Shown here in pieces: positions 1,314 to 49,605 of a stretch of 64,000 nt of DNA; positions within the stretch are counted from its first letter, which is position 1, and every line of letters begins with the position of its first letter. The stretch covers positions 1,612,001 to 1,676,000 of the forward strand of contig NZ_CP117811.1 in the NCBI RefSeq assembly GCF_028728065.1, in the 5' to 3' direction. The DNA comes from Lentisphaera profundi (GTDB lineage: Bacteria; Verrucomicrobiota; Lentisphaeria; Lentisphaerales; Lentisphaeraceae). A model generated the notes under the pieces. The model had not been told where the DNA came from and made no database searches. It saw only the letters and a list, made by a program, of their open reading frames with translations. A program made the position numbers and the translations under genes.

Positions 1314-3167
1314 TCAGTCATATAAGTGAGCTATATTATTTAATGAAAGAGCGCGATTATAAATGCGAATATCGCAAATACGCCCTTTTAAAAAATTTCT
1401 GGTCCATCGACCAATCTGAAGTTTTTCTTTCGAGTAGAGCTTACTGTGCTTGTTGGAACTCATTACTAAATCACCATCTACAAAAATGGATTGAGTATTG
1501 CGATCAAATCGAAAAGCTAAGTCATACCATTTCTTTTCTTGCATCACCACACTAGAAATGGAGTCATTTGCTAAATGAGCTAAGTAAGGATGAGCTCGTC
1601 TGATTAACAGCACTAAAGTTGAATTGCCCTCTACAGGAGCTTTAAACTCCGTACTAAAAATAGCATCATCATGTGTATTACTTCTCATTAATTCATTAAA
1701 GTAAATACGACAAGTCACCGTGTAGGAACCATTTAAACCTAGTTCATCAGCTCGAGTATGGACTAAATAATCTTTTGTATTTGATGAATTTAATTCCATC
1801 ACGGTGCCCATTTCATCATCCATCACAAATTGAGGTTCACCAAATACTTCAGCCTCTAAACCAGTACTTTTATCTAAAAAGTCTCCACTTAAGGGCAAGT
1901 CACAAGTCAAAGCTTCTTGAAGTTCTAAATCTGTCAAATCAGCTAAAGCTTCACTTGATGTATAAAAAAGATTTTCCATACTTAAACTCGCATAAGGATT
2001 TTTATCATCCTGTTTTTGGATATTCACTAAAGTCTCACCAGTATCTTTTTCTAAGCCTCCTATGGTTCTTAACTCAATAAGATTTAAACCTTTCTTAAGG
2101 TCTACGCTAATTTCTCCGTTTTCATTAAGTTTATAAAGCTTTTCATTGATACGTAAATTCGTTGCTCTTAAACTGCTGACTCGAAAAATTTGAGGTCCAG
2201 TTAGCTCTGATTTATAGTAAGATTTCAATACCATCAAAAAAGGTTTATGACTGACATAACTATGCGCGGTATGTGATGCCCGCACATAACCATCGTAGGC
2301 TCCTGTTAAATAAGAAAAGTCATTGCGTATGCCATTGGATAATAGATCCATATCTGCATCAAGAGTTAATGTTTCACTAGGATTGGCGTAGTAAAAATAT
2401 TCGACTCCTTGGTGAATTTCGGGAATAATGTGGCTCCCTCTTTTCTCTTCCAGCTTAAATAATTCAGTATCTATTCTCTGACCTGCTCCTACAAAAACCG
2501 AATCCTTTGCGCCGCGATTTAGCTTCACTTTGCCGCTACTCACCCACAATTGAGTTTCGCCCTTGTCGGACAAAGAAAATTCTGTGCCAATAATTTCGGC
2601 TTCTCCCTCATTCGTTTTTATGATAAAGGGAACTTTCTGTTTTTCTAATTTTGCTCGAATTTCGCCTTGCTGAAGATTTATGTAATTACAGTCGCGATTT
2701 ACAAAATTCACACTGCTATTTTCCATTAGGTGAATTTGACTATCTTGTTGCGCTATATCGATGCGGACTTGACCACCTAAGCCCACAAGAATTTGATCAC
2801 CTTTTTTAATACGATTGGCATTTTCAATCATTTCTCCATTGCGAATCAGCTTATAATTCGTACTCACAGAGTGAATACTCAAAACTAGATTTGGTTTATT
2901 AACTATTGGAGTAAATAATACAAAAGCTAAAACGAATAAGGCTGCAACAGCTAAAGCATACTTATAAAATTGAAAAGATTTAACTTTATTCTTTTCTGGT
3001 TTTTGATTCTGAGCCCACTCTTTAAGCTCACTCTGTTGTTCTAATGACTCCAGGTAGAATTCAAAAGCCTCATCAGATTCATCTATGAGTTTTTTAAGTT
3101 CATTTTTGTCTTCTTCATTGGCTTCTCCATGAAGGCATTTATCTATGAGTAGTTCTAGGTCTTTCAT
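1314..3167 (-). CDS. FecR-type anti-sigma protein with C-terminal LamG domain
   Basis: This is a 617-residue inner-membrane protein. Residues 1-60 are a helical cytoplasmic segment of the anti-sigma type (start MKDLELLIDKCLHGEA). Residues about 70-88 form one membrane span. Residues about 105-225 match a FecR domain (RIKKGDQILVGLGGQVRIDI, then EIIGTEFSL). Residues about 440-617 look like a LamG jelly-roll ending in GRICDIRIYNRALS. It overlaps the ECF sigma gene upstream by four bases (ATGA), so the two are translationally coupled. By family, FecR proteins hold or license the cognate sigma factor in response to a periplasmic signal. The LamG domain makes a carbohydrate cue plausible, which is an inference. 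Confidence 0.85.
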   Translation of the reverse strand: MKDLELLIDKCLHGEANEEDKNELKKLIDESDEAFEFYLESLEQQSELKEWAQNQKPEKNKVKSFQFYKYALAVAALFVLAFVLFTPIVNKPNLVLSIHSVSTNYKLIRNGEMIENANRIKKGDQILVGLGGQVRIDIAQQDSQIHLMENSSVNFVNRDCNYINLQQGEIRAKLEKQKVPFIIKTNEGEAEIIGTEFSLSDKGETQLWVSSGKVKLNRGAKDSVFVGAGQRIDTELFKLEEKRGSHIIPEIHQGVEYFYYANPSETLTLDADMDLLSNGIRNDFSYLTGAYDGYVRASHTAHSYVSHKPFLMVLKSYYKSELTGPQIFRVSSLRATNLRINEKLYKLNENGEISVDLKKGLNLIELRTIGGLEKDTGETLVNIQKQDDKNPYASLSMENLFYTSSEALADLTDLELQEALTCDLPLSGDFLDKSTGLEAEVFGEPQFVMDDEMGTVMELNSSNTKDYLVHTRADELGLNGSYTVTCRIYFNELMRSNTHDDAIFSTEFKAPVEGNSTLVLLIRRAHPYLAHLANDSISSVVMQEKKWYDLAFRFDRNTQSIFVDGDLVMSSNKHSKLYSKEKLQIGRWTRNFLKGRICDIRIYNRALSLNNIAHLYD

Positions 3168-3676
3168 TGTTCAACATTCTCCATTACACAGCTCTTTAAT
3201 ACTTTGCGTAGGCGAAATAGTTGGATACGAATTTGCTCTGCACTTCTATTGAGGATCGCTCCCAACTCATAACTTTTTTTCTTTTCATGATAACGAGCAA
3301 TCAAAAGTTGTTTCTGATCATGGGATAGTTTTTCTATACAGCTTTGCAATGCATTTTGACGCTCATCTAAGTCATTGACTTTTCGTGTAGAAAAATGCTC
3401 TTCTGCTTTTTGCATTTGTACTTCATTAAGTAAATTTTGAGCTCGTAAAAACCTTCTTTTGGAATGCATAACTTTATTACGAGCAATACCAAATAACCAA
3501 GATTTAAACTCTCCTTTTGAATTATCAAAACTTTCAAATTTATTCCATGCGGTTGCAGCAACTTCTTGAAGTAAGTCGTCAGCATCACTCAAGTTGGGTA
3601 GTAGTGATCTGATATACATCAGTAATTGTTGCTGAAGCGGCGCAAAGTGGCGAATAAAATCCGTATTCTCTTTCAT
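3164..3676 (-). CDS. ECF RNA polymerase sigma factor
   Basis: This is a 170-residue sigma-70 family protein of ECF size. Region 2 spans residues about 10-80 and includes DADDLLQEV and the promoter-melting/-10 segment KSWLFGIARNKVMHSKRR. Region 4 spans about 105-165, with a helix-turn-helix around SYELGAILNRSAEQIRIQLF. Its stop overlaps the start of the FecR-LamG gene, the usual sigma/anti-sigma arrangement. It is divergent from the DUF1549-type gene at 3849, with 172 bases between starts. Control of the 3849-9945 block is plausible, but I cannot identify a target promoter. Confidence 0.9.
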   Translation of the reverse strand: MKENTDFIRHFAPLQQQLLMYIRSLLPNLSDADDLLQEVAATAWNKFESFDNSKGEFKSWLFGIARNKVMHSKRRFLRAQNLLNEVQMQKAEEHFSTRKVNDLDERQNALQSCIEKLSHDQKQLLIARYHEKKKSYELGAILNRSAEQIRIQLFRLRKVLKSCVMENVEQ

Positions 3677-22410: not shown

Positions 22411-23465
22411 TAAAAATTCACGATTAACCAGTTAACGATGTATTAAGATATTTAACAGGTTTCTGTGATGTAGCCATAGCTTTAGATATTAAGCCAAAAA
22501 ACATTTTCCTGAGGTCAAATCTTCTATTGAGCCTAAACTGTAAATCCGCAAGGTACCTGAAACCATATTTATCGAATTTTAAAGAGTGGAAAGTCCCCGA
22601 AATTGAGGTTTTGATGTTACTTAAAATTGTATTGACCCATTTAAAAGTACTTTCTATTTCTTCTTTTTTTGCTTTACTAGTAACTAAAACGCTATGATTA
22701 CTTACTTCTTTTAAGGCACTGAAACCTCTAAGTCCATCTGAAATTGTATCACAGTTCTCCTCAAGATTATCTATAGCCCATTGTTTAATAACTTCATAAG
22801 AAAAACCCGATACAGGACTCAGTTTAACAAAAACTGGATTCCGATTTTCGTTAGTTTCTACGGCAGCTATAAATGGAGACTTATTTTCTGAACCTCTACC
22901 TCGTTTACCTTCTTCCAGTCGACCGCCTAGGTAAGCATCGTCTATTTCAACCAAGCCTTTAAGTTTATACTTACTGTCCTGCTCATACATCATCTGCATA
23001 ATTTTCTGCTTTATTAACCAAGCAGTTTTATAGTTCACATCAATGTGACGGTGTAATTCTAATGCTGAAACACTGTTCTTTGATTGACTTATTTGATGGA
23101 GAGCTAAGAACCATTTCTGGAGAGGAACTTTCGTTCGATGAAATAAAGTACCCGCTGTTAAGCGATGGTTTTTACGGCAGGCTTTACATTGAAAGATTGT
23201 GCGGCTTCCTGATTTATAGCGATAATACTTATCACTATCGCATGTGTCACATTTAAAGCCATTAGGCCACTTACAGCTTTCCAGGTAAGCACTACATTGT
23301 TCTTCGGTTCCAAAAGTTTTGATGAATTCTGGAAAGCTAACTCCAACTTGAAACTGAACTTTATTCTTAGGCATAATACATCTCCTTATTAGATGTAATT
23401 AATATGCTACTAAAAAATAGCTATATCAAGTTTTACACTCTTAACTGGTTAATCGTGTAAAAATT
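22411..23465 (-). mobile_element. Complete IS1595-type insertion sequence with target duplication
   Basis: The element spans 22419-23457 (1039 bp). Its ends are perfect 17-bp inverted repeats, CACGATTAACCAGTTAA at 22419-22435 and the complement at 23441-23457. It is flanked by an 8-bp direct repeat, TAAAAATT, at 22411-22418 and 23458-23465. Eight-base duplication and a single ISXO2-like transposase gene fit the IS1595 family. Intact ends, an intact target duplication and an open transposase frame suggest a recent insertion. Confidence 0.95.
22424..23374 (-). CDS. IS1595-family (ISXO2-like) transposase
   Basis: This 316-residue transposase has an N-terminal zinc ribbon (CDTC at about 42-45 and CKAC at about 62-65) and a DDE-type catalytic domain. 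Catalytic landmarks are VEIDDAYLGG (first Asp), DTISDGLRGF (second Asp) and the region HSLKFDKYGFRYLADLQF near the C-terminus. The stop codon lies inside the left terminal repeat (22424-22426), which shows the gene fills the element. The minus orientation points towards the sulfatase gene. The frame is complete, so the element may be active. Confidence 0.93.
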   Translation of the reverse strand: MPKNKVQFQVGVSFPEFIKTFGTEEQCSAYLESCKWPNGFKCDTCDSDKYYRYKSGSRTIFQCKACRKNHRLTAGTLFHRTKVPLQKWFLALHQISQSKNSVSALELHRHIDVNYKTAWLIKQKIMQMMYEQDSKYKLKGLVEIDDAYLGGRLEEGKRGRGSENKSPFIAAVETNENRNPVFVKLSPVSGFSYEVIKQWAIDNLEENCDTISDGLRGFSALKEVSNHSVLVTSKAKKEEIESTFKWVNTILSNIKTSISGTFHSLKFDKYGFRYLADLQFRLNRRFDLRKMFFGLISKAMATSQKPVKYLNTSLTG

Positions 23466-23648: not shown

Positions 23649-25544
23649 ATGACTTCTTTCAATCGTTTCAGCCACGGCATTCTTGTTGCTATTCTTATTA
23701 GCTTCAGTCATCTTGCTTTTTGTGAGAGTCTTCCTTGGGATCTGAGTCAAATACATAAAAACCCTCAATGGCAAAAAACTGATTTAGCACCCGCAGCTGG
23801 AATGACCGCTCTACTCTATAATTCTCTCTCCTACACTGCTAATGATGTTCAGGTTTTTGCTTATTACTCCGCGCCTGAAGGAACTCCTCCAGAAGGCGGT
23901 TGGCCTGCAGTTGTCTGTGTTCACGGTGGCGGTGGAACGGCTTTTCCTCAATGGGTAAAAAAATGGAATGAGCACGGCTATGCCGCAATTTCAATGGATC
24001 TAGAAGGCCACATCCCACTGAATCTTACTGGTAAAAAAGGACGTCAGCCTACTCCAAATCCAGGCCCTAGCCGTATTGGCGTCTTTCACGATTTTGACAA
24101 ACCGATAAAAGAGCAATGGTACTACCATGCCATGGCTCAAATAATGATTGCACATTCACTCATTCGCTCGTTTCCAGAAGTAAATGCCGACAAGACTGGC
24201 TTAACGGGCATTAGCTGGGGCGGAAATCTCACCAGCTCTGTCATGGGAGTCGATACACGATTTAAATTTGCTATCCCTGGCTACGGCTGTGGCTTTTTAC
24301 CTGCTTCTTCTGGTCACCAGGGTCGCGCAATCAGCGATGGAAAACACAGTGATGTTGTGAATACTTACTACGATGGTTCAGCCTACTTTCAAAATGTCAA
24401 TTACCCTACTCTTTGGGTCAATGGAACAAATGATTTTCATTTTGCTATGCCCGCATTTCAAAAATCTGCCCAAGCAACTAAGGCACCTCAAACCATGAGA
24501 ATTGAACTAGAGATGAATCATGGGCATGGTCCCGTTTGGGATACTGAAGAATGTTATGTTTTTGCAGATTCAATTGTAAAAGGTCAAGCTGGGCTTATTC
24601 AATTTGAAGCTCCTCAAGCAGAAGCAGATCAAGCCCGTGTGATTGTTGCGGCTCCCGCAAAACTTAAATCAGCCCAATTGCTCTATACTCTAGATGCTGA
24701 TAATATTTGGCCCGATAAAAAATGGCTTGCGCTTCCCGCAAAAATAGAAGCGAATTCAATCTCTGCAACTTTACCTCCTGGGACTTTTGCTTTTTACTTC
24801 AATGCTAGAGATTCACGGGGGATGATGTCGAGTAGTTTTTTCTTAGAGCATCAAGTCGAAGGCCTAAGATCTGTAGAAACAAGTAATACTCAACTTGATT
24901 TTGACCAATTATTTACTCAAGCAATAAGTTCACAACAAGGAAAAAAAATTCTCCTTGCTGAAAATTTCGAAAATGATTTGTCTCCTAAGATTCATACAAT
25001 GGTGAATGTAAAAGACCCTAGTGGTATTGCAGGCATCCAAGAATGGTACGATGAAAAAGCTTCCGGCGGAAAATCCTTGCTTATTTCAAATTCACCAAAT
25101 GTTCAGCACTCGTTTATGCCCTCACTGAACCAATGGTTTCGTGGTGAACAAAGCCTAAAATCAGGTGCACTTAATTTATCCTTTGATATTTTAGTTCCCC
25201 AAAGTGCTCACATGGCAATTGAAAGCAGAGATTACAGTGTGAAGCCTTCCATCAATCACTTAAGTATTAATTTGATGCCCTCGACTATTTCTCTCGGCAA
25301 AAAAAGTATCCAGTATCAAGCCAATCAATGGCTACATCTAGAGCTTTCCATTCCCGTCAATCAAAATCAGGCAGACATTAGGCTCAAGGTACAAGAGCAA
25401 AACGGCGAGACACACGAGCTCTCTAGTCCTGCTACACAAGTCAAATCCTTATCTTGCTTAGGACTTATGCTACCTGGAAAAAATGATAGCAAAATCTACA
25501 TCGACAACCTCGTTATCAGTCACATTCAAAATGAATCGCATTAA
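23649..25544 (+). CDS. Secreted alpha/beta-hydrolase (acetyl esterase-like) with C-terminal beta domain
   Basis: This is a 631-residue protein. After a signal peptide (about 1-25), residues about 40-310 form an alpha/beta hydrolase of the dienelactone hydrolase/acetyl xylan esterase type. It has an oxyanion loop VCVHGGGG, nucleophile S189 in GISWGG, acid D262 in NGTNDF and His 291 or 293 in MNHGHG. Residues about 420-631 form a separate beta-rich domain that starts KILLAENFEND and ends SKIYIDNLVIS. The next gene, 17 bases on, encodes a free-standing relative of this domain. The enzyme may remove acetyl groups from polysaccharides; the substrate is not evident. Confidence 0.82.
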   Translation: MTSFNRFSHGILVAILISFSHLAFCESLPWDLSQIHKNPQWQKTDLAPAAGMTALLYNSLSYTANDVQVFAYYSAPEGTPPEGGWPAVVCVHGGGGTAFPQWVKKWNEHGYAAISMDLEGHIPLNLTGKKGRQPTPNPGPSRIGVFHDFDKPIKEQWYYHAMAQIMIAHSLIRSFPEVNADKTGLTGISWGGNLTSSVMGVDTRFKFAIPGYGCGFLPASSGHQGRAISDGKHSDVVNTYYDGSAYFQNVNYPTLWVNGTNDFHFAMPAFQKSAQATKAPQTMRIELEMNHGHGPVWDTEECYVFADSIVKGQAGLIQFEAPQAEADQARVIVAAPAKLKSAQLLYTLDADNIWPDKKWLALPAKIEANSISATLPPGTFAFYFNARDSRGMMSSSFFLEHQVEGLRSVETSNTQLDFDQLFTQAISSQQGKKILLAENFENDLSPKIHTMVNVKDPSGIAGIQEWYDEKASGGKSLLISNSPNVQHSFMPSLNQWFRGEQSLKSGALNLSFDILVPQSAHMAIESRDYSVKPSINHLSINLMPSTISLGKKSIQYQANQWLHLELSIPVNQNQADIRLKVQEQNGETHELSSPATQVKSLSCLGLMLPGKNDSKIYIDNLVISHIQNESH

Positions 25545-25561: not shown

Positions 25562-26272
25562 ATGAAACAATATATTTTCACCTCAGTGCTTCTCATGGCA
25601 TCGTCATTGCTCATGGCCAGTACTCATGCTGAAACGCGTTTTAAAAAAGCTAGTCAGACTAGTGATACACGTACGGTTCTACTTGCTGATGACTTTGAAA
25701 ATGGAATTAGCCTACAAGTTCAAAAACTTCTTAATTGTTCTGATCCCTCTAAGCAAGCAGGCATTTCCATTAGTAGTGAAACTAAAGCTTCTGGATCAAA
25801 TTCGCTGAAGATAAGTAATTCTCCAACAGTTCAACATGCCTTCATGCCGGCCCTCAGCCAATGGTTTAAAGGTCCCGAACTGCTCAAGTCGGGGACTTTA
25901 ACGGTCTCTTTTGATATCTATATTCCAAAAGAGAGTCCCACTATTATATCTCTTGAGGCGAGAGATTATTCAGTAAATCCTTCCACCAATCATTTTAAAG
26001 CTGTCATTACTCCCATTGGTTTTCGCTTAGGAGATATAAGTAAAGGTTTCACTCCGGGTAAATGGATTCATTTTGAATATAAAATCCCCATCAATAAGGC
26101 TAATCAAAATATAATTTGTACCGCTACTGAAGAAATTGGGCCCGCAAAAATAATATCTATCCCTACTAAGTCAGGACAAAACTTAAGTTGGTTAGGAATT
26201 ATGCTCCTACAAAAAAATAAAAGTTTTGCTTACATGGATAATTTAGTTATCACTGTTGATAAGACCCTCTAA
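25562..26272 (+). CDS. Secreted stand-alone paralogue of the esterase C-terminal domain
   Basis: This is a 236-residue protein with a signal peptide (about 1-23). Residues about 38-236 align along their length with residues about 420-631 of the preceding esterase. Shared segments include VLLADDFENG/ILLAENFEND, SNSPTVQH/SNSPNVQH, FMPALSQWF/FMPSLNQWF, ARDYSVNPS/SRDYSVKPS and MDNLVI/IDNLVI. The fold is probably a jelly-roll of the carbohydrate-binding or LamG type, ending in the typical DNLVI strand. I do not know a named family. It likely arose by duplication of the domain in place and is co-transcribed with the esterase. Confidence 0.75.
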   Translation: MKQYIFTSVLLMASSLLMASTHAETRFKKASQTSDTRTVLLADDFENGISLQVQKLLNCSDPSKQAGISISSETKASGSNSLKISNSPTVQHAFMPALSQWFKGPELLKSGTLTVSFDIYIPKESPTIISLEARDYSVNPSTNHFKAVITPIGFRLGDISKGFTPGKWIHFEYKIPINKANQNIICTATEEIGPAKIISIPTKSGQNLSWLGIMLLQKNKSFAYMDNLVITVDKTL

Positions 26273-26417: not shown

Positions 26418-27497
26418 ATGAGCGAATCACCTATTAATAAACCTGACGTTTCTGCTGATCTATTAAGACATCAAACGAGTTTAAAACACGTACTCGCCAC
26501 TGAGTTCAAGAAACCAAAGCGAACAACTGCTTATACGGTTAATAAGGAAGTCTCTAATGAGTCCCTTGATCAAGAAGAACTAAGTGATTTAGATGAGAAT
26601 TCACCCGCCACTTACGAGGCCACTATTGTCTGTCCGGGTTGCAAAGTTGAGAATCTCTTTCAATTTCAAACGATGTTTGAAAAAGTCACTTGTTCAAAAT
26701 GCAGGTCTACCTTTCGTATCCCCGTAGAAACGGAAGAATTTATTTTTGATAAACACATTTTAGAAATGCCCTTAATCAATATTTTTCGCGCTCATAACAA
26801 AGAGAATGATTTTTACGGTGATGTCGTTGTTTATGAAAGAACGGAAGAAGATGAAAGTAAGCTTGGAGATTTAATCGAGGTCGTAAAAAAATTCTCTCAA
26901 GTAAGGGTCCAAAACTACCTAAGTCCACTATATTTCCAAGTAGACCCAAGTGCCTATTACATCTCGCGAGAAAAAGCTCACTTCCCTATGAACCTCTATC
27001 TAAAACAGTATGGTGCTCTATCTAAAAGCGATGCCTCTACTATTTTAAATCAAATCACTCATATTATTCTAAGTTTAGCTAAACAGAATATCTACGGTGA
27101 CCTTATCCCATCGGACCTTATGCTCAATGATCAAGGCATTATCCAAGTGAGTGATTATGGTTTACGAAATGCTTTGTTTACTCAAATGAATATACAAGAT
27201 CATTTACCGCTAAGTTATTTAGCTCCCGAAACAGTGCATCAATCAAGTCGAAATGAAGCCTCTGTCGTTTACTCTTTAGGCCTTTTGGCCATCACTCTAC
27301 TTAGTGGTGCTAATCCCTTTCAAGAACTCGACCCCGAGCAAGTTGAAGACGAACGTGAAAACTACCTTGAAAACTTTAAAGACACTAAGCTTCCGAGTTT
27401 CCTAAAGCTCATGATCAAAACAAATCCTGCTGACCGTCCACCACTTATGCAATGCGGTGACTTCTTTATAAGACTCTCACGCCAAAGCAAACGCTAA
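26418..27497 (+). CDS. Zinc-ribbon pseudokinase
   Basis: This is a 359-residue cytoplasmic protein. Residues about 68-100 form a zinc ribbon (C72, C75, C92, C95). Residues about 110-355 keep the outline of a protein kinase: YGDLIPSDLML stands for HRDLKPEN, SDYGLR for DFG, LAPETV for APE and YSLGLLAITLLSG for the F-helix. No glycine-rich loop or VAIK lysine is visible, the catalytic-loop Lys is Ile and the Asn is Asp. It is therefore predicted to be inactive. The CxxC-x16-CxxC spacing is identical to that of the active kinase at 48616-49605, and both have TEF after the ribbon, so the two are probably paralogues. Confidence 0.78.
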   Translation: MSESPINKPDVSADLLRHQTSLKHVLATEFKKPKRTTAYTVNKEVSNESLDQEELSDLDENSPATYEATIVCPGCKVENLFQFQTMFEKVTCSKCRSTFRIPVETEEFIFDKHILEMPLINIFRAHNKENDFYGDVVVYERTEEDESKLGDLIEVVKKFSQVRVQNYLSPLYFQVDPSAYYISREKAHFPMNLYLKQYGALSKSDASTILNQITHIILSLAKQNIYGDLIPSDLMLNDQGIIQVSDYGLRNALFTQMNIQDHLPLSYLAPETVHQSSRNEASVVYSLGLLAITLLSGANPFQELDPEQVEDERENYLENFKDTKLPSFLKLMIKTNPADRPPLMQCGDFFIRLSRQSKR

Positions 27498-31523: not shown

Positions 31524-32126
31524 CTAGAAGTCGAGTTCTGCTCGCAAGTACTTAATTTCTTCAATCAGTTTAAGTTTTATGCGGCTTACGTATTTGTATA
31601 CTGAGTCTGCACTGACTCCAATCTGGGAAGATATTTCGTTTGGCTTTAAACCTTTCCTCGTTAAAGCAAAGGCACTTAAAGCTTTTTCACTGAAGTGCTC
31701 ACGAATATTATCCATCGCTTTATTAGAGATAAAGAGCTCCCACTCTTTCCGTTCTCTCTCTTCAAGATCGGGACTGATATCGTCTAATCCGCCCTGCTCT
31801 TCATGATTTTTTGCTTTATCTAATTTAGATTCGTAAGATTTTTGCTTGCGTAAAAAATTAATTGCCTGATTACGAGTTACACGAGATAACCAATAACGAA
31901 ATTTTGTTCCTTCACGATTTTTATCAAAGCTAGGTAAATACTTCCATAACTGAAGCAGCACTTGTTGCTGAACGTCATCCGCATCGGCCTGACTTATATT
32001 CATTGATCGTATGATGACATAAATATATTGCTTATAGAGACCTATAAGCTCATCCCATGCGATCGAATCATTGCTTGAGCAAGCGCGATTTAACAAAGTA
32101 TAACTTGTGGAATAATCATCTTTCAT
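31524..32126 (-). CDS. ECF RNA polymerase sigma factor, Planctomycete type
   Basis: This is a 200-residue ECF sigma factor. Region 2 covers residues about 20-95, with [14 protein letters not shown] and [19 protein letters not shown]. Region 4 covers about 135-195, with the helix-turn-helix [25 protein letters not shown]. It has no obvious anti-sigma neighbour. Instead it is divergent from the membrane kinase-like protein at 32154, with only 27 bases between frames. PVC genomes often encode ECF factors next to Ser/Thr kinases, so control by that protein is plausible. Confidence 0.9.
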
Positions 32127-32153
32127 TTTACAAAATAAAGTAACTAGCCTAAT

Positions 32154-34223
32154 TTGAAATGTATTTCCTTATCAATTTCTATTAATTATCTATGGTTAAC
32201 CGTGAACATAAACGATAACAGTGACGAAAGCTTCTTTAGCCACATTGACGAAAGTTTAAGTGATTTCTTTGATATTGAGCTCGATGACAAAGAACTAGAA
32301 GCAGCTTATCCCATTCAAAATGAAATTAAGAAACTCTCTGAGCATTATGAAATTTTGGGTGAAATTGATCAGGGAGGCATGAAAAAGATTTTTCGTGCGA
32401 AAGACTTAAAGGCTGAGCGCATTGTTGCCCTCGCACAATTAAAACGTGAAGCAAAACAAGAAACCATTGAACAATTTTTGCGTGAAGCACGATTAACTGC
32501 TTCTCTTCAGCACCCCAATATCATTACGATTTATGACATCGGCATTGATGAAAATAATTCACCCTTCTTTACAATGGAACTGCTCGAAGGACAAACTTTA
32601 AAAAGCTTTATCGAAAATAAAGCGAGCCAAGAATTTAATATTGATGTATTCCTCAAAATCTGTGATGCCATTGCCTTTGCTCATAGCCACTCAATTTTAC
32701 ATCTTGACCTTAAGCCTGAAAATGTCTATGTCGGGTCATTTGGCCAAGTCACTGTTTGTGACTGGGGCATTGCTCGCATTCTTAAACAAGATGAAGAAGC
32801 TGAAGTATCTCCTCAATTTGATCCTGACATACTCAATCACATGACCCTACAGGGTCAAATAAAAGGAACCCCAGGTTTTATGGCTCCTGAGCAAGCCATG
32901 AGCAATCAACAAAAGGATCAGAGAACTGATATATATGCCCTCGGTGGTATTCTTTATTTCATGTTTTCAAAAAAAGCGCCCATACAGGGCAAAGAAATCA
33001 CCACCTTGATCGAAAAAACTAAGCGTGCAGAAATCCAACCCCTCGATAATTATCTTTCATTGCCACGAGCCTTGAAAGCTATTCTAACAAAATGTTTAAG
33101 TCCTGAGCCACAAGATAGGTATGCTAGTATTATTGATTTAAAATTAGATATTATCAAATACCAAAAAGGTTTTGCGACTCTCGCCGAAGATGCAGGATTG
33201 TTAGTCCACCTCCAACTCCTAATTCGACGACAGTATAAAGCATTAGTCATTATCATGTTCATTCTTGCACTCATTGTACTCATGGGAACTCAATCTCTGC
33301 AAAGAATTCGTCAAGAGCGCAATCTTGCCTTAAAGGCCGAACAAGTAGCACAAGCAGAAAGAATAAAAGCCGAAGAAAACCTGACCAACCTAAAAGAAGC
33401 TCATTTGCAAAATAAATTACTAACTGAAGATATTTTGGAACTTACTAATGAAATTGCAGATAGTGATGACCTGAGTAGTGCTAAACGAAAAATTGCACTA
33501 CTAAACGAAGCTCTGAAGAAGGAAAGCAAAGCGAAAAAAAGAAAAATAATCTTACGAAAGAAAGCCCTCTTACATTTCGTTTTACAAGAATTCACTGCGG
33601 CGGCGAAAACTTTTTCTCAAATGGACTCACAAAACAACCTATCTAGACTTATTAAAATTTCTGATTGGGCCAAGGAACTAAAACACGATTCACAATCTTT
33701 AAGCGATAGTCAATTCGCCGAACTTCTTCTGCATCTTGGTCACAATCAATACGAGCTCATTAAAGCGATGTATTTCAAGCATACTAAATACAGGTCTCAT
33801 CGTATCAAAGATAGTGAAGGTTCCATTTCACTCGCAAAAATTATGGTATTTTACAATAACAAAATTTGGGAAAAAAATAAATTAAATGGCTACTCGGAAT
33901 TCTTTGTCGACGGCAGAATTAGCTTAGCAAACCTGCCAATTAGTCGCTTCATTGTTGAACCCTATAAAATCAATATCCTCAGTGAGATTAACTTTGATTA
34001 TCTCGATATTTCTAACACTTCATTTTTTGAATTTGTTCAAATCAAAGATATCCCTCTGAAAACACTTAATATATCTGCCTGCCGACTTAACGAAATAAAC
34101 CCTATGCGTATACAAATCCTGCAGAGTACTGGACTTAAAACTATTATCTATCAGGATGCTTATCTAAAGCCTGAGGAGATCCAATTACTTTCAAAGTACT
34201 TCATCTTGAAGAAAGTTGATTAA
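32154..34223 (+). CDS. Membrane Ser/Thr kinase-like protein lacking the VAIK lysine
   Basis: This protein has up to 689 residues. The start is uncertain: TTG 32154 or, about as likely, GTG 32202. Numbering is from 32154. The kinase domain is at about 66-340 with a loop GEIDQGGMKKIF, helix-C Glu in REARLTA, HLDLKPEN (D185) and CDWG (D203). The usual VAIK lysine position reads VALA (A94), with K97 three residues on. A membrane span at about 360-380 is followed by a coiled coil rich in Lys/Glu and a C-terminal region with leucine-rich character. It is divergent from the ECF sigma gene. It may be an atypical kinase or a pseudokinase sensor. Confidence 0.82.
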   Translation: MKCISLSISINYLWLTVNINDNSDESFFSHIDESLSDFFDIELDDKELEAAYPIQNEIKKLSEHYEILGEIDQGGMKKIFRAKDLKAERIVALAQLKREAKQETIEQFLREARLTASLQHPNIITIYDIGIDENNSPFFTMELLEGQTLKSFIENKASQEFNIDVFLKICDAIAFAHSHSILHLDLKPENVYVGSFGQVTVCDWGIARILKQDEEAEVSPQFDPDILNHMTLQGQIKGTPGFMAPEQAMSNQQKDQRTDIYALGGILYFMFSKKAPIQGKEITTLIEKTKRAEIQPLDNYLSLPRALKAILTKCLSPEPQDRYASIIDLKLDIIKYQKGFATLAEDAGLLVHLQLLIRRQYKALVIIMFILALIVLMGTQSLQRIRQERNLALKAEQVAQAERIKAEENLTNLKEAHLQNKLLTEDILELTNEIADSDDLSSAKRKIALLNEALKKESKAKKRKIILRKKALLHFVLQEFTAAAKTFSQMDSQNNLSRLIKISDWAKELKHDSQSLSDSQFAELLLHLGHNQYELIKAMYFKHTKYRSHRIKDSEGSISLAKIMVFYNNKIWEKNKLNGYSEFFVDGRISLANLPISRFIVEPYKINILSEINFDYLDISNTSFFEFVQIKDIPLKTLNISACRLNEINPMRIQILQSTGLKTIIYQDAYLKPEEIQLLSKYFILKKVD

Positions 34224-43230: not shown

Positions 43231-43685
43231 GGATTGAGATAAAAGAATAAAACTTTTGTCTTTGCTAAGATAATATATTTATCACTATAAAGATTTAGAT
43301 CTTCCAACTGCGCTAAAACTTCCTTTAAGGTCAGTTGCATATCTAATTCCAATTCTCTCGCACTAAACTCTTTTACACTACCTGTCAATGCTTCCACATA
43401 GTCTTTCGCCTCTTGAGAATTCAAGGCCCTTAGATATTGCAGTCGCTTCTCCAAGCTTTGTTTTTGTAGAAGCCAAAGTTCTTTGTTTAAGTTGTAATCA
43501 AAAATAAATTCCTCAGCATACTGCCCTTTTATTTTTGATGGTGGAAAGAAAAGCTTAGCATCATTTAGATTTTCTAATTCTATAAAATAAATCCCATGTG
43601 CTTTTGAAAAGACACCTTTTTTTATGTTCACTTGCGCGACACAGTGAAAAGTCAGTAGAAATAAAACTACATATAAATACCTCAT
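43227..43685 (-). CDS. Small secreted hypothetical protein, end of the FHA operon
   Basis: This is a 152-residue protein. The start ATG 43685 overlaps the upstream FHA gene stop as ATGA, so I prefer it to an earlier in-frame start at 43700. Residues 1-17 form a signal peptide (MRYLYVVLFLLTFHCVAQ). The remainder is mixed beta (FSKAHGIYFIELENL) and then helical (residues about 65-135), with LQYLRALNSQEAKDYV and LKEVLAQLEDL. I recognise no family. It is the last gene of a coupled four-gene unit starting at 48366. Confidence 0.65.
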   Translation of the reverse strand: MRYLYVVLFLLTFHCVAQVNIKKGVFSKAHGIYFIELENLNDAKLFFPPSKIKGQYAEEFIFDYNLNKELWLLQKQSLEKRLQYLRALNSQEAKDYVEALTGSVKEFSARELELDMQLTLKEVLAQLEDLNLYSDKYIILAKTKVLFFYLNP

Positions 43686-45484
43686 TGGATTAACTCGCAC
43701 TCACTTAAAACCAGCATATCCAAACCGCGAATCCCCATAGACCAACCTTTAATTTTTACATGCTTACCATGGAGACCTAGATCTTCACTTTCACCCTTAA
43801 AATAACATTCAACAAAACCATCGAGTCGTAGCGTATGCCAATTTTCATCTGTACTAATGGCACTTACCGTACCTGAGATTTCTATGTACGAATCAGCATA
43901 TTTATTAAAGAAGCTCAGTAGATCCATTTGCTTACGATCTTGTAAAACATCCTGAGTTTTCAGAACTTCTATTTCCTTATTTCCTTGTTCACCCCTATAA
44001 ACTTTAGGTATCCAAATATTTTCATTTAAAGGTAATATTTTCTTTGCAATAACTTTTATGCCTTTACTGATTCCGAAACTGGCTGCCTTTGATGAAGGAA
44101 CACAAGATTCAATATCTCTCAATAAAAAATCTTTCTTTTCATCCTCATTAATAAAAAAAATGATATTACTTTTATTTGTTTTTTTCAGCATTCCATAGAA
44201 CTCTTCTCCTGACTTAAGCTTCAAATAATGGCTTATCGTAAAAAATTTACTTTCTACAACTAAGTCTTGACCTTGACTCAAAGTAAGTTCATGATTTTCT
44301 ACAAGATCACTGCCCTTCACGCTGATGGATACAAAGTAACTAGATGGCAATAACTTATCTAATTTTATAAAATGGTTCGATGAATCAATAAACTTACCAT
44401 TCACATTCACTTCACACTCAAGTTCAGGTAAATTAACCCGTAGTGAGCAATACCTCGGATCAAAAATAAATTCCTCATCTAATTCATCCATCTTTAAACT
44501 AATTACCGAATACGATGGCAAACTTAAATTTAAGACTTTATCTACAAGTAATTCTTTTCTAATAAAAGAGGGACTGATACCAAAGACATCGTCCTTAAAT
44601 GACAATTTTGCACCTTCTGGTTTTGTCTGAAAATCAAGATAGGCATCATCTCTCTCAAGCTCAATTTTTATATTCTGAGTAGACGACAAGTTAATAAAGA
44701 TATCTTTTCTATGATATGCCTTTTTGTAACAAGTCACATTATAGAACCCTGGACTTAAGCCTTTTACCTCAAGCGGTACCTTGCCCTTATACTCACCATT
44801 TAATTCGATCCTTACACCAGGAATTTCACTCTCAAAATTAAGACTATACAGCTGTTTTTTAAGTTCTTTTGGTCCTATTTTATCCACAAATGCAACATTA
44901 CCCTTCAATTCTTCACTAGGATCTATAAGTATTAAAACTGGATCGATATCCTCTGCAGGTATAATAGCAAAGATAGCTACACAGAAAAAGATCAACGCTA
45001 GTATTATAAAAATGCTTTCTTTTCGTTTTTTTTCAGGATCATTATTCGCGGAATATTCCGTATCCATTAATTCATTCACATCATTTGGAGTAGACTCACC
45101 ATCGGTCAAGTCATTTGGAGTAGGCTCACCATCGACTAAGTCATCAGCAGGATTAGGATCTAAAACTTTAGGCTCCTCTAAACTCTTAGGCAGCTCTAGA
45201 GACTCCACTAAGCAAAAACTTTCTTTGCCAATACTTATCTTATCACCGATCTGAACTTTACTTGCTTGAAATATTTTTTGTCCATTTAAAAAAACTCCAT
45301 TATGACTCCCCAAATCCTCCAAGAAAATCACGTCATCATGCAGACTCAACTCCATATGACGCCCACTAATTTTAGCATCATTAATAACCAAGGTACAAGT
45401 ATGACTACGCCCTATGGTAATTGAATTTTGTTCAAAATTCAGCTTTTTACCAAGCAAAGAACCTGCAGTAAAAAGAATCCTCAT
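43682..45484 (-). CDS. FHA domain membrane protein with PEGA-like periplasmic part
   Basis: This is a 600-residue protein. Residues 1-95 form a clear FHA domain (SITIGRSHTC, KISGRHMEL, LEDLGSHNGVFLNG). An acidic linker with a 10-residue repeat follows, then one membrane span at about 158-180 (IFIILALIFFCVAIFAII). Outside the membrane are PEGA-like repeats (IPGVRIELNGEYKGKVPLEV, FQTKPEGAKLSF), further beta domains, and an OB-like end (YIEISGTVSAI to HVKIKGWSMG). Its start codon directly follows the stop of the DUF1549/DUF1553 gene. It may carry a phospho-signal across the membrane to that system. Confidence 0.8.
   Translation of the reverse strand: MRILFTAGSLLGKKLNFEQNSITIGRSHTCTLVINDAKISGRHMELSLHDDVIFLEDLGSHNGVFLNGQKIFQASKVQIGDKISIGKESFCLVESLELPKSLEEPKVLDPNPADDLVDGEPTPNDLTDGESTPNDVNELMDTEYSANNDPEKKRKESIFIILALIFFCVAIFAIIPAEDIDPVLILIDPSEELKGNVAFVDKIGPKELKKQLYSLNFESEIPGVRIELNGEYKGKVPLEVKGLSPGFYNVTCYKKAYHRKDIFINLSSTQNIKIELERDDAYLDFQTKPEGAKLSFKDDVFGISPSFIRKELLVDKVLNLSLPSYSVISLKMDELDEEFIFDPRYCSLRVNLPELECEVNVNGKFIDSSNHFIKLDKLLPSSYFVSISVKGSDLVENHELTLSQGQDLVVESKFFTISHYLKLKSGEEFYGMLKKTNKSNIIFFINEDEKKDFLLRDIESCVPSSKAASFGISKGIKVIAKKILPLNENIWIPKVYRGEQGNKEIEVLKTQDVLQDRKQMDLLSFFNKYADSYIEISGTVSAISTDENWHTLRLDGFVECYFKGESEDLGLHGKHVKIKGWSMGIRGLDMLVLSECELIQ
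45081..45140 (-). repeat. 30-bp in-frame tandem repeat in the FHA protein linker
   Basis: Bases 45081-45110 and 45111-45140 are near-identical copies that encode the linker decapeptides LTDGESTPND and LVDGEPTPND. The linker joins the FHA domain to the membrane span, so copy number would change its length. Confidence 0.75.
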
Positions 45485-48615: not shown

Positions 48616-49605
48616 TTAAACTTCTTGCTCTTCCTTGGCCTCAGCTGCTAAAGCTTCAGCATGTAGCATTGTTATATCGTTGTATAGCTCATCATAGGTC
48701 TGGTAACGATCTTCCATTTCATGCGCAATCAAGTTATCTATTAGAATACATAAGCTTTCAGGAAGGTAATCATTGAGTTCCTGAATGGGATAACGATAAG
48801 GGTGCATATGCCCTTCTACGATCTCTTCATTCGGACCATCAAAATAGTTCTGTCCATTTACGACATAATAAAAAACCATTCCTAATGCATACATATCTGA
48901 GCGTTCATCTTCAGCTATCCCCTTAATGCGTTCAGGTGGAATATAAGATGGTGATCCAATCAGATTATCATCATCGATCTCTTGCTGCTCTTTATGAATA
49001 GCAAGGCCGAAATCTACTAAAGTAAGGTTTGCACCACGTACAATGACGTTCTGAGGCTTTAAATCTCGATAAATAAATCCCATATTTGCCATATATCGTA
49101 AAGCGTCCACTAACTGCATCATCCACGAATAAAGTTCAACTTCGGAAAATTCAAAACCTTTAGCTATTTGTTCCAAAGTATAGCCAGGTACATAGTCCAT
49201 TAATAAAAATGCACTTCCACTTTTATAGCCAAAGCGATAGGCTTTAGCAATATGTGGATGCTCGAAACTCATTACAACGTCACCTTCATAAAGTAAACTT
49301 TGAAAGCGAAAGTCACATTCATCTGTATATTCAGAAAGTTTTATAGCATATAACTTAGAGTCTTCATACTTCTGGGCCATATACACACGACCCATCCCGC
49401 CTTCACCTGTAACAGAATATAACCAAAATTCAGTGATTCGCATTGGCATGAAAACATTCTCGCCGCAGTTCTGGCATTCATATTCTTGCAAAGGTTCGTA
49501 ACCTTCCATGTCACACCATTCATGACATTTCATGCACTTGGCTAAGCCATCTTCAAAGCGTTTAAGCTCATTATCTGATAGGGCTGTAGTTCTGTAACCT
49601 TCCAT
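48616..49605 (-). CDS. Zinc-ribbon Ser/Thr protein kinase
   Basis: This is a 329-residue cytoplasmic kinase. The zinc ribbon has C24, C27, C44 and C47. The Hanks-type kinase domain is at about 60-315 with all key residues: G-loop GEGGMGRVY (67-75), K89 in YAIKL, D181 in YRDLKPQN, D198 in DFG, IPPERI, and SDMYALGMVFYYVVNG. There is no membrane span. A short Ala/Glu-rich tail ends the protein. It lies 250 bases upstream of, and in the same direction as, the DUF1501-FHA operon, so FHA proteins nearby are natural targets. The ribbon spacing matches the pseudokinase at 26418. Confidence 0.92.
   Translation of the reverse strand: MEGYRTTALSDNELKRFEDGLAKCMKCHEWCDMEGYEPLQEYECQNCGENVFMPMRITEFWLYSVTGEGGMGRVYMAQKYEDSKLYAIKLSEYTDECDFRFQSLLYEGDVVMSFEHPHIAKAYRFGYKSGSAFLLMDYVPGYTLEQIAKGFEFSEVELYSWMMQLVDALRYMANMGFIYRDLKPQNVIVRGANLTLVDFGLAIHKEQQEIDDDNLIGSPSYIPPERIKGIAEDERSDMYALGMVFYYVVNGQNYFDGPNEEIVEGHMHPYRYPIQELNDYLPESLCILIDNLIAHEMEDRYQTYDELYNDITMLHAEALAAEAKEEQEV

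Follow-up and report, generated by a model that had tools for sequence, protein, structure and literature searches.

The gene at positions 26418–27497 (+ strand) of the window, by which we mean the whole 64 000-nucleotide stretch of the Lentisphaera profundi genome analysed here, encodes a zinc-ribbon pseudokinase of 359 residues, read from an ATG-to-stop open reading frame, that matches the Pfam kinase family and has four paralogues in the same genome. The window copy is PS1-like, and the five genes belong to a family (PS) that was found in the genus Lentisphaera only. Judging from the residues kept and lost in its 13 members, we favour, with moderate confidence, a reading in which the PS proteins would be soluble, non-catalytic binding modules that serve as five scaffolds or allosteric adaptors in a Ser/Thr-kinase network. 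Bacterial pseudokinases are little studied, and the PS copies, which have lost nearly everything but the fold and two aspartates, let one ask what selection keeps after catalysis ends.

Domain organization and predicted structure

The protein begins with an N-terminal arm (residues 1–71; 26418–26630, + strand) that is poorly conserved and contains 21 % Ser/Thr, followed by a zinc ribbon of the form CxxC-x16-CxxC (C72-C75...C92-C95; 26631–26702, + strand), whose four cysteines did not vary among the 13 family members. The remainder is a kinase-like domain (residues 108–359; 26739–27494, + strand) in which the Pfam match and the predicted model both place the elements in the order of a two-lobed kinase. 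That the kinase outline is kept, as the preliminary description had stated, was confirmed by the match to Pfam Pkinase (PF00069) over residues 156–346 (3.9e-14, 53.1 bits, against a cut-off of 31.7). All five copies in the window genome scored above the cut-off, and the 13 members all matched at E up to 0.5. With the limit set at E 10, the Pfam matches of the window protein were confined to kinase and zinc-binding families, an NCBIfam search gave no match near a cut-off, and PADLOC returned generic kinase matches only.

AlphaFold2 gave a pLDDT of 40.7 when the five family members were used alone, and a pLDDT of 73.4 with a pTM of 0.69 when four other kinases from the window and L. marina were added to the alignment, the arm remaining below 50 (residues 1–62). 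The added sequences were the kinase at 48616, with its motifs intact, and three of an approximately 680-residue HLD type; the one of these that was checked, at 32154, has Ala at the β3 Lys position. Among the matches listed by Foldseek for the pseudokinase model, all 50 were kinases, and by way of the same model a comparison with human MST3 gave a Z score of 23.5 and an r.m.s.d. of 2.7 over 243 residues (model residues 105–356). A two-lobed kinase fold is plausible from this model, which the added kinases steer toward a normal kinase.

Around the gene, promoter-like sites were as numerous as expected from shuffled sequence, while terminator-like sites were somewhat above it (4 versus a shuffled mean of 2.0, SD 1.3), one of them lying 160 bp past the stop codon.

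Loss of the catalytic residues in all family members

The glycine loop, the VAIK Lys and the catalytic-loop Lys and Asn had been described as lost, and none of them was found at the aligned positions of the window protein. Bulky residues take the place of the glycine loop, no Lys is present at the aligned β3 position, and the catalytic loop (27093–27116, + strand) reads Y226-G-D-L-I-P-S-D233 in place of the canonical H-R-D-x-K-x-x-N, with Ile230 for the Lys and Asp233 for the Asn; the changes of Arg to Gly and of Asn to Asp were present in 13 of 13 members. The DFG equivalent is D246-Y-G (27153–27161, + strand), its Asp invariant across the family. The window copy thus retains the equivalents of both the HRD-Asp (D228) and the DFG-Asp (D246), on which the preliminary description had been silent.

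When all 13 members were scored, in an alignment whose β3 and αC registers are alignment-dependent, the β3 Lys (Val, Leu or Ala instead), the HRD-His, the HRD-Arg (Gly in 13/13), the catalytic Lys, the catalytic Asn (Asp in 13/13) and the αF Asp were each present in 0/13. The HRD region can be written as [Y/F/I]G[D/A/S/E], its Asp being found in two members only (the window copy and the PS1 copy of genome G208) and replaced by Ala in eight, Ser in two and Glu in one. Retained in every member were the DFG-Asp, the APE-Glu and the αI Arg; the DFG-Phe was Tyr in 13/13 and the DFG-Gly was kept in 11/13, giving the motif DY[G/A/S]. In total, 42 alignment columns were invariant, K128, R184 and R250 among them. 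The catalytic-loop Asn and the DFG-Asp are the metal-binding positions of active kinases, and in the PS family both are Asp (D233 and D246 in the window copy) in 13/13.

With the β3 Lys, the catalytic Lys and the Asn missing from all 13 members, the family lacks the residue set of an active Hanks-type Ser/Thr kinase, and we infer that the PS proteins would not carry out phosphotransfer. Since the degenerate signature is common to the 13 copies and these form one clade in the tree described below, catalysis would most simply have been lost once, ahead of the duplications.

Distribution and maintenance of the PS family

A search of the window genome (G000; 5.46 Mb, two contigs) with the window protein retrieved the protein itself and four paralogues (41–47 % identity, at least 255 bits), after which scores dropped to 59 bits. 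The 13 members were distributed as five, four and four copies over G000 and the other two Lentisphaera genomes (G208 and G314), and they were assigned to the groups PS1 (window, G208 and G314), PS2, PS3 and PS4 (three genomes each) and PS5 (G000 only). A 13-row family profile, run against six genomes of the taxonomic family, recovered the 13 members at 485–547 bits; the next matches, at 85–98 bits (maximum 98.2, among the matches listed), were one larger protein per Lentisphaera genome, referred to here as BIG, and the rest scored 60 bits or less. Among 387 genomes from the phylum, with the best five candidates per genome scored, 12 had any match to the window protein at 1e-10, and matches of family level (at least 40 % identity) were present in three, all Lentisphaera. 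A pattern-limited scan of 84 980 species, in which records near the window genome were possibly omitted, returned only Lentisphaera marina IMCC 11369, with four loci.

All 13 frames were open (346–389 aa). The window copy is about 50 % identical to its nearest counterparts, and the PS1 and PS3 copies of G000 share 45–50 % identity with their G208 and G314 counterparts. Among orthologue pairs (n=12), dN ranged from 0.07 to 0.51, and dS was undefined owing to saturation in nine pairs and 1.8–3.7 in the other three. Low dN set against such dS values indicates purifying selection on the PS genes, which are maintained and not in decay. No membrane-like segment was detected in the 13 members, whose highest 19-residue Kyte–Doolittle mean was 1.52, compared with 3.07–3.25 in four BIG relatives. 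In the 250 bp upstream of the PS genes, no exact 10-mer was common to more than two of the five PS groups.

Origin of the family

To place the family, we built a tree of the ribbon plus the kinase domain from proteins carrying a ribbon of spacing 12–20 within 90 aa upstream of the domain (69 rows considered, 23 ribbonless rows dropped, 46 retained). The PS members formed a clade (100/100) on a stem of 2.6 changes per column, and they grouped with six BIG-type rows and the sequence L024, which has HGD-L-N together with DFG (98/99), with the warning that the long branches of L024 and PS meet at this point. The kinase at 48616 fell into a separate clade (100/98). Holding PS together with 48616 cost 14.9 log-likelihood units, and the AU test did not reject it (p-AU 0.159). 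Trees of the kinase domain alone differed: in the first one L047 stood beside the PS family, again with a long-branch warning, and in a second quick tree, made after L047, L057 and L059 had been removed as long branches, PS lay next to L009 within the clade of 48616 (SH-aLRT 98, 20-row set, stem of 2.6 changes per column). For the kinase domain alone, holding PS with BIG scored 9.2 log-likelihood units above the free quick search, and a sister relation of PS and 48616 had an AU p of 0.468.

The BIG proteins (L044:8015–10600, on contig C2 of G000 at about 2374014–2376599, with orthologues L068, L069 and L070) have about 860–900 residues, and 784 in genome G387. Like PS, they carry the same type of ribbon followed by a kinase-like domain, and the HRD-Asp is lost in six of six BIG-type rows and in 11 of 13 PS members. 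The six rows have also lost the catalytic Lys, while the β3 Lys, the catalytic Asn and the αF Asp are kept in all of them. A hydrophobic segment was found in the four BIG proteins checked; this membrane segment, the long C-terminal part and the β3 Lys set BIG apart from PS, which has none of them (the window protein ends at 359 residues).

The gene for a pyruvate-phosphate dikinase, for which each genome gave a single match, was located roughly 3 kb or less from BIG in G387 and in G232 (genus g3), directly adjoining PS2 in G208 and G314, and near neither PS2 nor BIG in G000; in the draft genome G086 (370 contigs) it and the BIG-type gene were on different contigs. This synteny is a second hint for a BIG origin of PS, from a pattern spotted post hoc. 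Taken together, these comparisons suggest that the source of PS was probably a larger, BIG-like membrane zinc-ribbon pseudokinase that had already lost the catalytic Asp and still kept the β3 Lys. The transition looks like a stepwise loss from the BIG type to PS, a link that rests on long branches and from which the quick kinase-domain tree differs. A single genus would then hold a graded series, from intact ribbon kinases through BIG, without the catalytic Asp and with the ATP lysine kept, to the soluble PS proteins.

BIG is in its own right a conserved pseudokinase amid translation genes. At four of four loci it adjoins SUI1-domain and release-factor genes, and at the three Lentisphaera loci it is flanked by ileS on its opposite side.

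The kinase at 48616 as a proposed partner

The zinc-ribbon kinase at 48616–49605 (− strand) had been put forward as an active paralogue of the pseudokinase with which it could form a regulatory heteromer. This kinase retains its catalytic residues, with Tyr for His in HRD, and shares with PS, as do the genome's remaining ribbon kinases, the order of a ribbon followed by a kinase domain; it differs from PS in the retained residues and in its clade. It is only distantly related to the pseudokinase, and since the genome holds 105 Pkinase matches (102 of them above the cut-off), a kinase 21 kb away carries little meaning. The paralogy holds only in the sense that both are related Hanks-type kinases, with 21 % identity over 236 aa. 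In a search of G000 with the pseudokinase, 48616 was match 23 of 24 (E 4e-4), and on average the 13 PS members were 13.9 % identical to it, less than to any other of the ten ribbon kinases used as references, compared with 18.7–20.1 % (aligned region) to four BIG-type proteins. The equal ribbon spacing of the two proteins is real, but x16 occurs in 45 of 46 ribbon kinases and in 32 of 33 outside PS, so the shared spacing is generic and without information. The TEF said to follow the ribbon in both did not hold up: after its last ribbon Cys the pseudokinase reads T-E-E-F, and only the Phe is equally spaced (13 residues) from that Cys.

Occurrence speaks partly for such a pairing. Both genes are in the window and in three of three Lentisphaera genomes, and absence of the pair in relatives, set beforehand as its refutation, was not seen within the genus. 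The AU values given above for the ribbon-plus-kinase alignment and the kinase domain do not reject a sister relation, and the second quick kinase-domain tree sets PS in the clade of 48616 beside L009. On the other hand, G387 has a 54 % identical relative of 48616 and no PS member, and the orthologues of 48616 in G208 and G314 are 91 % identical, a divergence unequal to the approximately 50 % identity of the window copy to its counterparts. The 48616 orthologue and the PS1 gene were also on different contigs in both relatives, one of which is a draft of 80 contigs. Weighing genome rank, identity, the trees and AU tests, synteny and co-occurrence together, we judge the pairing unsupported, and we regard it as very improbable that the window pseudokinase serves the active kinase at 48616 as its dedicated regulator in a kinase/pseudokinase heteromer.

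Gene neighbourhoods

Upstream of the pseudokinase, on the same strand, lie a gene for a hydrolase (23649–25544, + strand), similar by Pfam to acetyl xylan esterase and dienelactone hydrolase, and one for a 236-aa protein (25562–26272, + strand), which ends 145 bp before the pseudokinase and is 43 % identical to residues 421–624, the C-terminal part, of the hydrolase. The 236-aa protein had no Pfam match at 0.01; it was found in G314 and not seen in G208. A full-length orthologue of the hydrolase adjoins a PS gene, or lies one gene from it, in three of three Lentisphaera genomes: copies matching over 600 aa occur once each in G208 and G314 (63 and 65 % identity), both preceding a PS gene. The PS gene in this seat is PS3 in G208 and G314 and the PS1-like copy in the window. 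Forcing the window copy to group with those two PS3 genes was rejected (p-AU 1.8e-14), as was grouping it with all three PS3 genes (2.8e-6); its best placement was with PS1, at weak support (92/57), a placement that the AU test did not reject. Two histories could account for this: an exchange of seats among the PS genes, or differential sorting of a tandem pair inherited from the ancestor. Directly upstream of the hydrolase–pseudokinase group, on the opposite strand, is an IS1595/ISXO2-type transposase gene with a zinc ribbon of its own (22424–23374).

No neighbour was common to all PS groups among the loci compared. PS4 and a MacB/HlyD-type exporter operon are divergently oriented in three of three genomes (Pfam run on G000 only), PS3 is near DUF7133-cytochrome genes in all three, with a GH31 gene in addition in G208 and G314, and PS2 adjoins a DUF7133 gene in G000. 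At L062:3810–13496 (G208) and L063:6414–15929 (G314), the dikinase gene and PS2 are followed in the same direction by three further genes, one of 810 aa, one for an ECF-type sigma factor and one for a 674-aa kinase, an arrangement that is split in G000. The 810-aa product had no Pfam match, and the 674-aa kinase is 77 % identical between G208 and G314, its G000 orthologue (72 %, contig C2) lying away from PS2 (contig C1). Besides PS, four kinase genes were counted in the 13 PS neighbourhoods, compared with approximately five expected from 102 per 5.46 Mb. Since kinases of the PS2-linked type number 50–58 per genome and the neighbour count is at the level of chance, we did not read the sigma and kinase genes near PS2 and the window copy as a link.

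The window contains further parts of the kinase complement. At 31524–34223, about 4–7 kb from the pseudokinase, a gene for an ECF-type sigma factor (Sigma70_r2) is divergent from one for a 689-aa kinase (32154–34223), whose family of approximately 680-residue proteins gave 52, 50 and 58 matches at 1e-60 in G000, G208 and G314, respectively. A related sigma gene was present in the 1.5 kb flank of at least five of 34 distinct kinase loci, the window's included. Eight of these kinases (K32154, L014, L058, L092, L093, L094, L099 and L100) have Ala at the aligned β3 Lys column and H[L/M]D for HRD, and the same eight retain the Asp, Lys, Asn and DFG-Asp; a Lys or Arg placed two to three residues later might stand in for the β3 Lys. 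A 600-aa protein combining FHA with PEGA (43682–45484) is a possible phosphothreonine reader of the kinase network. Near PS genes there are also multi-copy related proteins of approximately 250 residues (L041:13272–14078, L042:17132–17869, L043:1598–2356 and 2695–3462, L062:2920–3693 and L067:16118–16867); the first matches DUF1559 and, weakly, the N-methylation motif, and the group is probably pilin-like.

Proposed function and alternatives

In the reading we favour, an ancestral membrane zinc-ribbon pseudokinase without the catalytic Asp would have given rise to the PS ancestor, which would have lost its catalytic apparatus as a single copy and then duplicated. The retained kinase fold, the zinc ribbon and the conserved positions would together make a protein-binding module, and the diverged N-terminal arm, possibly with the surface, would provide every paralogue with a partner or site of its own, and the five proteins could thereby act as scaffolds or allosteric adaptors within the very large Ser/Thr-kinase network of this genome. 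The invariant acidic pair D233 and D246 is not needed by pure scaffolding and counts against the scaffold reading. Given this pair, and D228 (the HRD-Asp) in the window copy, a residual or changed activity is conceivable.

Pseudokinases are well established as allosteric controllers, and it is possible, although we think it distinctly less likely than the general scaffolds proposed above, that the PS proteins regulate other kinases, or the approximately 860-aa BIG, in this allosteric way. In favour of this, the genome has 102 Pkinase matches above the cut-off, and downstream of PS2 in G208 and G314 the same strand carries the 810-aa gene, the ECF-type sigma gene and the 674-aa kinase gene; the window has its sigma/kinase pair about 4–7 kb off (31524–34223). 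Against such regulation, the orthologue of the PS2-linked kinase (72 %) is not near PS2 in G000, that kinase type has 50–58 matches per genome, and the four kinases in 13 PS neighbourhoods compare with about five expected. The acidic pair could instead point to a repurposed pocket that binds a metal or ligand and supports a non-kinase reaction (cf. SelO and SidJ) or sensing, which we consider unlikely. D233, substituting for Asn, and the DFG-Asp are invariant in 13/13 while the β3 and catalytic-loop Lys are lost in 13/13, and K128, R184 and R250 are invariant too; however, bulky residues replace the glycine loop, no Lys stands at the aligned β3 position, D246 and the residues around it could have been retained for the sake of folding, and SelO and SidJ differ in having Lys-containing motifs, as given in Table 1 of PMC12599244. 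If such a lysine-free D233/D246 pocket were real, the five paralogues would be non-kinase sensors or enzymes derived stepwise from a membrane pseudokinase that is still present. Least credible of all is that the genes are decaying pseudogenes without function: divergence is fast, as the 45–50 % identity of the PS1 and PS3 copies of G000 to those of G208 and G314 illustrates, but 13/13 frames are open (346–389 aa), 42 columns are invariant, and dN is far below dS wherever dS could be estimated.

Comparison with known bacterial pseudokinases

No publication dealing with pseudokinases of Lentisphaerae came up in a literature search. A 2025 review describes seven bacterial Ser/Thr pseudokinase families (ActPs1-3, GLW, CP1, DYD and DLHK) among 42 (PMC12599244), and the chlamydial Pkn5 is treated in PMC8242063. 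In the main text of the review, zinc and the stems Lentisphaer-, Planctomycet- and Verrucomicrob- have no occurrences. As far as the review describes them, the seven families resemble PS in combining a kinase fold with degenerate catalytic motifs and in having partners that are mostly undescribed, and they differ from it in their motifs, taxa and attached domains (PMC12599244).

PS was compared with four of these families on selected described features and matched none of the four. DYD is described as membrane-associated, with the β3 Lys changed to Arg and DYD in place of DFG (PMC12599244), whereas PS has Val, Leu or Ala at β3, in an alignment-dependent register, DY[G/A/S], and no membrane-like segment. 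GLW carries GLW in place of HRD and a C-terminal transmembrane segment (PMC12599244), compared with [Y/F/I]G[D/A/S/E] and, again, no such segment in PS. In the ActPs3 or MviN type, as summarized there, the catalytic motifs are completely degraded and the activation loop carries a deletion (PMC12599244), while the DFG-Asp is kept in PS in 13/13. CP1 is linked to a COG3899 ATPase domain (PMC12599244); the window protein has 359 residues and Pfam matches only to kinase and zinc-binding families (E up to 10).

Bacterial pseudokinases were already known, and their descriptions would set PS apart from DYD, GLW, ActPs3 and CP1. A parallel to the proposed role is MviN, where, according to the account in the review, the pseudokinase domain is part of a membrane protein whose C-terminal tail, once phosphorylated by PknB, recruits FhaA (PMC12599244). 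MviN would resemble PS as a bacterial pseudokinase that acts by recruiting a partner (PMC12599244), and it differs, as described there, in that PS is soluble-looking, retains DYG and carries its arm at the N terminus.
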